Positions 30,452 through 33,138 of a stretch of 42,815 nucleotides of DNA are shown in pieces. The translations under genes and the position numbers were made by a program. This stretch comes from an uncultured Spirochaetia bacterium (GTDB lineage Bacteria; Spirochaetota; Spirochaetia; JABEVK01). The DNA lies in NCBI GenBank assembly GCA_937960645.1, contig CALGPJ010000020.1, positions 1 through 42,815 of the forward strand. The letters run 5' to 3'. The notes under the pieces were generated by a model. It did no database searches. It saw only the letters and a list, made by a program, of their open reading frames with translations, and was not told the origin of the DNA. The stretch's first letter is position 1; the number at the start of each line of letters is the position of its first letter.

Positions 30452-31834
30452 ATGGTTGTCCATCGACTGAGCTCCCAACTCCTTGAAAACGCGGAAGGTT
30501 TTCAGAAAATTGCCCGAATTCTTTCCAAGGAATCCGAGCTGCGGCGTCTGGCCGTCGTTCTTTCTCCCGTCCACGGGATCGATTCCTTGATCCGAACGCT
30601 CATCGCTGAGGCGGTCCATCGGGATGTCAGAGACAGGGTTCGGGAACTGATAGAAATCCACCTCGATGTGATGGAAGACCTCCATTTGAACACAGCCTCC
30701 CTGCGACAATCCTTGAACGAATTGGCGGCGCAGATCAACGATCTCTTTCTCGGTATATCGTTGACCCGGTATTGCACCGATCGAACCGCAGAACTTCTCC
30801 TGGACCTCGCCATTCAGGCAGCCGGCCTCATTCTCAAAGAATTGTTGATCGAGCACGGTGTATCCTCGGTGAGTTTGACAGATCGATCGCTCAGCCTCAT
30901 CTATGCAAAACCCTCTCGGCCTTTCCCGATCGTCGACTGGGAGCTTACGGGAAAAGCCATCCGGGACTGGGCGGCAGAACAACAAGGCATCGTCCTCCTC
31001 GGCGGCCTGTTGGTGGCAACGCCATCCGGTCAAAAAGTTAACTTCGGTAGAAACAGCGGCGATTACATCGCCAGCCTGATCGCCTCGGTTTTACGTGCCC
31101 CGTCCCTGACCGTTTGGATGAACCAGGACGGTCTACCCGTTGCACCGGCTGCCTACATCGGAAATCCGAAAAGAATCCGCCAGATGAGCTATGAGGAATG
31201 CATGGAAATGGCCTATTTTGGCTCGGACTTCCTCCACCCCTACACCCTCCTTCCCTTGATCGAGCCCAACATTCCGCTGCACATCAGGTCCATCGAGACT
31301 CCCGATACCACCGCAACTCTCATCGAGTCCCAGGGTTCCCGATATTTACACAACATCACAGGATTGACGTCTATCGAAAAGATCTCCATCCTCAACATCG
31401 AGGGAGGCGGGATGATCGGTATTCCGGGATTTGCCGCCAGACTTTTTGCAGCTCTCTCACAGTCCCAGATAAATGTCATCATGATCAGCCAGGCCAGTTC
31501 GGAACACAGCATCTGTTTGGCCATCCGGGAAGAAGAGACTGGAAGAGCCGTTCAGGCCATCGAAAGGGAATTGGAACAGGAACGGCAGTCCGGACAAATC
31601 GGACCGATCGACATACTTCAACCCTGCTCCATCGTTGCCATCATCGGCGATGGCATGAAAGGAATGAAAGGTTTGAGCGGGCGAATCTTCGGTGCTTTGG
31701 GAAGGGCCGGAGTGAACGTTTTGGCGATTGCCCAGGGAAGCAGCGAACGCAACATCAGCTTCGCCATCGCGGCCAGGGAGACTGTCCTGGCCATCGAGAG
31801 CCTTTATCACGAATTTTTTGGAGATCCTGAATGA
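30452..31834 (+). CDS. Aspartokinase-like protein with degraded kinase motifs and two ACT domains
   Basis: A 460-residue protein that aligns along its length with the aspartate kinase half of ThrA. The catalytic motifs are lost. Lys-Phe-Gly-Gly-Thr-Ser-Val is His-Arg-Leu-Ser-Ser-Gln-Leu (4-10). The Arg-Gly-Glu-Lys-Met-Ser substrate motif is Leu-Asp-Leu-Ala-Ile-Gln (~117-122). Gly-Arg-Asn-Gly-Ser-Asp-Tyr is Gly-Arg-Asn-Ser-Gly-Asp-Tyr (199-205). Trp-Thr-Asp-Val-Asp-Gly is Trp-Met-Asn-Gln-Asp-Gly (222-227). In contrast both ACT domains (~310-375 and ~393-455) are well kept, including Gly-Asp-Gly-Met-Lys and Ala-Gln-Gly-Ser-Ser-Glu-Arg-Asn-Ile-Ser. It is probably not a kinase but an amino-acid-sensing partner, perhaps of threonine synthase, which starts at its stop codon (ATGA overlap). 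Confidence 0.8.
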   Translation: MVVHRLSSQLLENAEGFQKIARILSKESELRRLAVVLSPVHGIDSLIRTLIAEAVHRDVRDRVRELIEIHLDVMEDLHLNTASLRQSLNELAAQINDLFLGISLTRYCTDRTAELLLDLAIQAAGLILKELLIEHGVSSVSLTDRSLSLIYAKPSRPFPIVDWELTGKAIRDWAAEQQGIVLLGGLLVATPSGQKVNFGRNSGDYIASLIASVLRAPSLTVWMNQDGLPVAPAAYIGNPKRIRQMSYEECMEMAYFGSDFLHPYTLLPLIEPNIPLHIRSIETPDTTATLIESQGSRYLHNITGLTSIEKISILNIEGGGMIGIPGFAARLFAALSQSQINVIMISQASSEHSICLAIREEETGRAVQAIERELEQERQSGQIGPIDILQPCSIVAIIGDGMKGMKGLSGRIFGALGRAGVNVLAIAQGSSERNISFAIAARETVLAIESLYHEFFGDPE

Positions 31835-33138
31835 AGACAGCCTCGACCCGATCTTTCGATCAAGCCGTCTTTTTTCGCGACGCCCTCTTTCAGGGCCTTG
31901 CCCCCGACGGCGGACTCTACGTCCCTGTTCAAAGCTTCGATCTGAGGGAGCTTTACCTGAGCCTGGACCCGAAATTGCCCTTTGCAAAGTTGAGCGCAAG
32001 GGTCCTCAGCCCCCTGCTTTCTGATGAAATGAGCGAGACAGCCATTCAAACAATTTGTGAAGGAGCGTTTTTTTTCTCCCCCGCTTTGAAACGCCTCGAG
32101 AAAAACCTCTACGTCCTGGAGCTTTACCATGGGCCCTCGGCAGCCTTCAAGGATTTTGGAGCGAGCTTTTTGGCAACCGCAATGTCCTGGTTCTTGAAAA
32201 ATGAAAATAAGCGATCGATTATCCTGACGGCGACCAGTGGTGACACGGGCAGTGCCGTCGCTCAGGCATTTTACGAAAAACCCAACATCGATGTGGTCAT
32301 CCTTTATCCCGAGGGGCGCGTCAGCCCCCTGCAGGAAAAGCAACTGACCACATTGGGCAAAAACATTCATGCCCTCGAAATACGGGGAAGCTTCGACGAT
32401 TGTCAGCGGCTGGTCAAGGAGGCTTTTCTCAGCGAACGGCTGGCCCACCTCCCTTTGACCAGTGCCAACTCCATCAATCTGGGAAGGCTCTTACCCCAAA
32501 GTCTTTATTACATCTGGGCCTTTATCCAGCTGCGGGAAAGTCTGACCGACGATTTGATTTTTTCTGTCCCCAGCGGAAACTTTGGAAACCTGACAGCAGG
32601 AGTTTACGCCTGGAAGTGGGGTCTGCCGGTTCACCGCTTCATTGCGGCGACCAACCTCAACGACGTCGTCCCCGAGTACCTCAGGACCAAAAGGTACCTG
32701 CCCAGGCCGTCGATTGCCACCTATTCCAATGCGATGGATGTCGGCAACCCCTCTAACTTCGAGAGGTTGGAGCAAATCTTCCAAAAAAGCCCCGACCTGA
32801 TGTCCAGCCTGATTTCGGCCTTTTCGGTCAACGACTCCGATACCCTGCAAACGATGAAAGAAACCTGGGAGGGGTACGGTTATGACATCTGCCCACACAC
32901 GGCTGTGGGCCTCAAAGCCTGCCAGGACTTCAAGAAAAATTGGAACGACGAGGACGGAACCTATGTGGTGCTGGCGACGGCCCACCCCGCCAAATTCCTG
33001 GAAGTGGCGGAAAAAGCAACTGGCCGCCAACCCGAGCTTCCCGAATCCCTCCAGAGCTGCCTTTCCCGGCCGAAACAGAGTACCCTTCTGACGCCCGATT
33101 TGGAGGCACTCACGGGTTTCCTGTTGAATCTGGGCTGA
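31831..33138 (+). CDS. thrC: Threonine synthase
   Basis: PLP enzyme converting O-phosphohomoserine to threonine; 435 residues. The start has Phe-x-x-Ala-Leu-x-x-Gly-Leu-Ala-Pro-Asp-Gly-Gly-Leu-Tyr-Val-Pro, standard for the family. The PLP lysine is in Gly-Pro-Ser-Ala-Ala-Phe-Lys-Asp-Phe-Gly. Ala-Thr-Ser-Gly-Asp-Thr-Gly-Ser-Ala and Pro-Ser-Gly-Asn-Phe-Gly-Asn bind the cofactor phosphate and ring. All key motifs are intact, unlike the kinase-like gene before it, to which it is coupled by an ATGA overlap. The 3' end overlaps the convergent dehydrogenase gene by 29 bp. Confidence 0.95.
   Translation: MKTASTRSFDQAVFFRDALFQGLAPDGGLYVPVQSFDLRELYLSLDPKLPFAKLSARVLSPLLSDEMSETAIQTICEGAFFFSPALKRLEKNLYVLELYHGPSAAFKDFGASFLATAMSWFLKNENKRSIILTATSGDTGSAVAQAFYEKPNIDVVILYPEGRVSPLQEKQLTTLGKNIHALEIRGSFDDCQRLVKEAFLSERLAHLPLTSANSINLGRLLPQSLYYIWAFIQLRESLTDDLIFSVPSGNFGNLTAGVYAWKWGLPVHRFIAATNLNDVVPEYLRTKRYLPRPSIATYSNAMDVGNPSNFERLEQIFQKSPDLMSSLISAFSVNDSDTLQTMKETWEGYGYDICPHTAVGLKACQDFKKNWNDEDGTYVVLATAHPAKFLEVAEKATGRQPELPESLQSCLSRPKQSTLLTPDLEALTGFLLNLG

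Follow-up and report, generated by a model that had tools for sequence, protein, structure and literature searches.

Directly upstream of the threonine synthase gene in the window (the whole stretch of DNA analysed, 42,815 nt) lies a gene whose product resembles an aspartokinase from end to end, and the question that it raises is whether this protein is still an enzyme or has become something else. The gene occupies 30452..31834 on the + strand (460 aa, ATG start, stop codon within these coordinates) and its stop overlaps the start of thrC by 4 bp (ATGA); thrC itself (31831..33138, + strand) encodes 435 aa and scores 293.1 bits against TIGR00260 (cut-off 167.1). Both flanking genes are on the opposite strand, an EPSP_synthase-family (murA-like) gene upstream, recognized by a profile match, and a putative dehydrogenase-like ORF downstream, named by inspection. 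No riboswitch or other known RNA was found within the window. The NCBIfam model of ThrA, aspartokinase I-homoserine dehydrogenase I (NF006959), matches residues 1-457 with 356.9 bits (E 2e-106), which agrees with an earlier note on this DNA that the protein follows the kinase part of ThrA over its full length; the score lies below the cut-off of 726 bits, as expected, because the homoserine dehydrogenase (HSD) half is absent. An AA_kinase match (79.5 bits) marks the kinase domain, residues 1-300 (30452..31351, + strand), and two stretches of ACT_9 (146.5 bits) mark two ACT domains in residues 301-458 (31352..31825, + strand). The protein thus shares with ThrA homology to its first 461 residues, the ACT motifs and the thrC neighbourhood, whereas ThrA has a fused HSD and catalytic kinase residues, both of which are missing here. 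Descent from a ThrA-type protein is supported by the end-to-end similarity and by the fold. The general aspartokinase model TIGR00657 also scores above its cut-off (217.3 versus 208.7 bits), and an automatic name based on it would mislead on activity.

Alignment to intact orthologues from the class Spirochaetia revealed that seven of the nine catalytic positions checked, whose functional roles are established for the aspartokinase family, are lost in the window protein: five by the substitutions K5R, G7S, G8S, T44D and E121I, together with the leading Asp of TDVDG and the Pro of DPR. The former phosphate loop KFGGSS (residues 5-10; 30464..30481, + strand) now reads RLSSQL, with MKVMKFGGSS replaced by MVVHRLSSQL and SAMKGIT by SPVHGID. 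The substrate-Glu motif SFGER (residues 118-122; 30803..30817, + strand) has become DLAIQ, TGFIA has become GGLLV, and the nucleotide region TDVDG...ADPR (residues 223-234; 31118..31153, + strand) now reads MNQDG...APAA (WTDVDG to WMNQDG, SADPR to VAPAA). The KFGG(S/T)S loop, the aspartate-binding Thr and Glu, and the WTDVDG and DPR motifs of an active aspartate kinase are therefore all absent. The earlier note had listed the phosphate loop, the Glu motif and TDVDG as altered, which holds for the window protein, but the erosion is not complete: Arg200, Asn201 and Asp204 are retained in the former GRNGSDY motif, now GRNSGDY (residues 199-205; 31046..31066, + strand; LGRNGSD to FGRNSGD), and the related protein described below keeps TDxDG. 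A K[FYIL]GG[ST] loop is absent from every frame of the whole window, which excludes catalytic residues supplied at shifted positions, a possibility that had been raised for checking, as well as an N-terminal frameshift. An assembly artefact is excluded by an independently assembled second species, which carries a related dead version. Judged from its residues, the kinase domain is very probably catalytically dead.

The genus comparison rests on two species, the window genome (G000) and G001, since a search for further members in the named genome collection returned only the same G001 contig. The G001 protein (locus L008/L151) is 46% identical to the window protein, the frame is intact in both species, and G001 has the same 4-bp overlap with thrC (138-1517/1514-2824 in L151) and a similar downstream gene. 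Five of the nine positions are lost in it (both Gly, Thr, Glu and Arg), of which both loop glycines, Thr and Glu are lost in the two species alike; its motifs read MVVHKISSSLL (loop KISSSL), SFGSR and LGINGSD, and TDTDG and the Pro of the DPR motif are retained. The thrC-linked genes of G002-G006, from the two other genera of the family, have intact KFGGSSV or KYGGSSV loops. The G001 contig is also deposited as DYOB01000069.1 (L044), titled Borreliella garinii isolate SulCav, which appears to be a mislabelling; at 3.4 Mb and with genes for amino-acid synthesis, the G001 genome is unlike that of Borreliella.

To place the genus in its class, about 150 orthologues were fetched and scored at the nine positions; 146 genomes with sufficiently full sequence were counted, contig-end truncations (L208/L274, L218, L263, L266) being excluded. 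With at least three lost positions taken as dead, 33 of the 146 genomes carry a dead kinase domain, a count that is no unbiased frequency because the set was picked by best matches and then by fused families. Most dead proteins have lost five to eight positions. Stand-alone dead copies occur in the window's genus, in families f37 and f14 and in one genus of f20, dead copies fused to HSD in six families (f3, f4, f9, f17, f22 and f25), and the remaining families are intact, whether stand-alone or fused. A tree of the ACT region (155 columns) requires five changes, four of them forced by well-supported branches, and an AU test on it rejects a common origin of the dead proteins in one clade (p-AU 0.0011); a wider quick tree requires six, with two truncated rows counted as intact. 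Short sequences and some long rows leave the precise count of losses uncertain. In the ACT tree the genus does not stand beside its own family's intact genes, and grouping them is not rejected (AU p=0.21). Since the same loss occurred several times in close and distant relatives, the product is most likely a regulator and not an enzyme. The losses also call for a correction of annotation: the dead fused proteins L271 (f22) and L252 (f9) reach 879.6 and 820.3 bits against the NF006959 cut-off of 726, so that the automatic name 'bifunctional aspartate kinase/homoserine dehydrogenase I' would be wrong on the kinase, and metabolic models relying on such names include a nonexistent aspartokinase.

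The window genome (99% complete) holds a second, intact aspartokinase, as the earlier note had suggested looking for. This 446-aa LysC-type protein (L001) has all motifs intact and an ACT motif of the lysine type; its gene adjoins an asd-like gene on a contig other than that of the pseudo-aspartokinase, and the two proteins share 26% identity and belong to different subfamilies. With an intact LysC in the same genome, loss of the ThrA-type kinase activity is tolerable. A second aspartokinase was recovered in 33 of the 35 dead or presumed-dead carriers searched, with loop and Glu motifs intact wherever the sequence covers them; in G045 and G366, both fragmented assemblies, only the fused protein was recovered. 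The intact second enzymes of f37 and of the fused carriers (L341-L370) mostly belong to another subfamily, with APGKKIT and FSRGGSDI motifs and an unusual first ACT region, and PRK09034 was over its cut-off in two that were tested.

In contrast to the kinase domain, the ACT domains are preserved, as had been noted from the sequence at the outset. The motifs ISQASSEHSI (residues 345-354; 31484..31513, + strand), with Gln347, and IAQGSSERNIS (residues 426-436; 31727..31759, + strand), with Gln428, are perfect and of the threonine-enzyme type (ISQ.SSE, IAQGSSE), and both glutamines are present in all dead (33/33) and all intact (113/113) proteins. In plant aspartokinase-HSD, the two corresponding glutamines (Gln443 and Gln524) reportedly contact threonine. 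An AlphaFold2 model of the window protein (34 sequences; pLDDT 85.7, pTM 0.83) has as its best PDB matches the threonine-sensitive aspartokinase of Methanocaldococcus jannaschii (3c1m, 3c1n; TM 0.86), including the threonine complex, and the regulatory domain of Escherichia coli ThrA (6mx1) matches the ACT part with a TM of 0.94 of the target at 1.5 Å. The M. jannaschii protein has the same two motifs; it is an active kinase with loop and pocket intact, whereas in the window protein these are destroyed. Motif and structural homology make the window protein a likely threonine sensor. Of the two ligands first proposed, threonine or lysine, threonine agrees with the motifs and with the nearest solved relative, while the lysine-type motif, as found in the genome's own LysC, differs.

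Altogether, we put the probability that the gene encodes a threonine-sensing regulatory pseudoenzyme at roughly 60%. The pseudo-enzyme reading, already proposed from the sequence, has gained from the loss throughout the genus, the repeated independent losses elsewhere, the ACT sites kept in all dead proteins and the intact aspartokinase in the same genome. Binding of threonine to the two ACT sites would cause a conformational change in the pseudo-aspartokinase, which, as a separate subunit, would repress a partner in the aspartate/threonine pathway, and the kinase fold may persist as a scaffold for dimerization and transmission. Much of this is known in parts, namely ThrA, ACT regulation, regulatory aspartokinase subunits and, in N-acetylglutamate synthase, a kinase domain that serves only as a sensor (PMC7878489); the same paper cites published work in which the ancestral kinase activity of the ArgA domain was restored. 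ArgA likewise uses a domain of the amino acid kinase superfamily as an amino-acid (arginine) sensor, but there the kinase domain itself binds arginine and is fused to its acetyltransferase partner, whereas in the window protein sensing would fall to the ACT domains. In the literature searched, which left most subscription journals outside, we found no account of a whole dead aspartokinase serving as a separate threonine sensor that arose repeatedly in one class. A textbook enzyme domain would thus have dropped its activity several times and kept its allosteric sensor, which offers a natural series for the study of allosteric domains outliving the catalysis they evolved to control.

Which partner such a sensor would act on is less clear. 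The earlier note had pointed to ThrC or a true aspartokinase; HSD has better comparative support than either, and we tentatively regard it as the likeliest candidate, because the HSD of the genus has no recognizable ACT domain and HSD is the fusion partner of such dead kinase-ACT modules elsewhere. No Pfam ACT match was obtained in the HSDs of G000 and G001 (L037, L156), even at E=1, whereas the G002 HSD matches, and the C-terminal region of HSD in the window's genus is without a recognizable ACT signature, unlike in sister genera. In fused carriers, HSD would be the natural target of the dead module, with phosphorylation left to the other aspartokinase; in the window's genus, with HSD separate and ACT-less, threonine sensing for the HSD step would most obviously fall to the pseudo-aspartokinase. 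More guarded still is the speculation that the spirochaete ThrA kinase domain repeatedly became a non-catalytic, threonine-sensing subunit controlling HSD. It would act in cis in the fused proteins, and in trans in the window's genus, in which sensing and catalysis would have passed to separate single-purpose proteins. The conserved gene neighbour of the pseudo-aspartokinase is thrC, not hom. A rule by which pseudo-aspartokinases pair with ACT-less HSDs fails, as ACT-bearing HSDs coexist with stand-alone pseudo-aspartokinases in f37, G077 and G019; the argument for HSD is therefore limited to the window's genus, and LysC and ThrC stay candidates. In the sister genus, the genomes G006 and G004 (L157, L158) have ACT-less HSDs with a truncated C terminus, the G004 protein being a second copy beside an ACT-bearing one.

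LysC is the first of these. Aspartokinases oligomerize through their ACT domains, and in Corynebacterium glutamicum, Thermus and Mycobacterium tuberculosis the regulatory subunits consist of the ACT part only and are produced by internal initiation in the same gene. These beta subunits (2dtj, 2dt9, 3s1t) resemble the window protein in being non-catalytic ACT polypeptides that sense threonine for an aspartokinase; unlike them, the window protein includes a whole dead kinase domain and is encoded by a separate gene. By analogy with the catalytic/regulatory pairs of C. glutamicum, the pseudo-aspartokinase might form a mixed oligomer with LysC and add threonine inhibition to a lysine-sensitive enzyme. 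The known mode of oligomerization would allow it, LysC, with its lysine-type motifs, is the only catalytically intact aspartokinase of the genome, and a second aspartokinase accompanies nearly all dead proteins. We nevertheless consider this arrangement unlikely, given the low identity between the two proteins, their different subfamilies and the location of lysC with asd on another contig; moreover, the second aspartokinase of fused carriers is of the PRK09034 type, so that a constant partner family is absent.

That the pseudo-aspartokinase, translationally coupled to thrC, binds ThrC and adjusts it to the threonine level is more doubtful again. The overlapping gene pair common to both genus members would suit such a role, and thrC also adjoins further dead copies, both stand-alone ones and several that are fused, but intact enzymes of the class have the same neighbourhood, so the linkage is ancestral and uninformative on the dead protein specifically.

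The divergence of the two halves bears on whether the gene is simply decaying. The window protein shares a mean identity of 26% with intact orthologues in the kinase half and 48% in the ACT half, and within the genus pair the values are 38% and 63% (z=-4.1), or 37% and 64% in another alignment. Among intact pairs, kinase identity tracks ACT identity (slope 0.76, residual sd 4.3), whereas in dead pairs the kinase half lies a mean of 21 points under the expectation from the ACT half, with 96% of pairs below -2 sd. By simple Nei-Gojobori counts on few pairs, omega is 0.10-0.21 in the kinase half and 0.03-0.08 in the ACT half of dead pairs with measurable dS, and 0.02-0.11 and 0.02-0.04, respectively, in intact pairs; dS is saturated in the window's genus pair, and these figures are taken from other, comparable pairs. 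Relaxed but not neutral, the dead kinase half is thus probably retained as a scaffold. The comparison of dN/dS bears out a more relaxed kinase half, but the earlier claim that purifying selection acts on the sensor half alone has to be given up, as constraint is not confined to the ACT half. A decaying gene, in which the kinase is superfluous and the ACT half merely not lost yet, is suggested by the other intact aspartokinase, which makes kinase activity redundant; it is very improbable, however: omega stays under 1 in comparable pairs of dead proteins, the frame is open in both species at 46% identity and saturated dS, the ACT half is conserved about like ThrC (63-64% versus 66% between the genus members) and other lineages have repeatedly arrived at the same state.

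Equally improbable is a changed kinase with its pocket rebuilt for another substrate such as homoserine, for although a recognized thrB is missing in G000 and Arg200, Asn201 and Asp204 persist, the phosphate-binding glycines and lysine are lost, and genomes with an intact aspartokinase also have no recognized thrB, so that this gap is class-wide and unrelated to the dead kinase. The homoserine kinase model TIGR00191 was over its cut-off in only one of 41 class genomes (G000-G040), and TIGR02535 and TIGR00938 had no match in G000-G004; replacement of homoserine kinase was rejected on these grounds. The class may use an unrecognized homoserine kinase, for which a candidate is the GHMP kinase L038 of the window genome (about 390 aa; G000:C6:153705), which has counterparts in many relatives.
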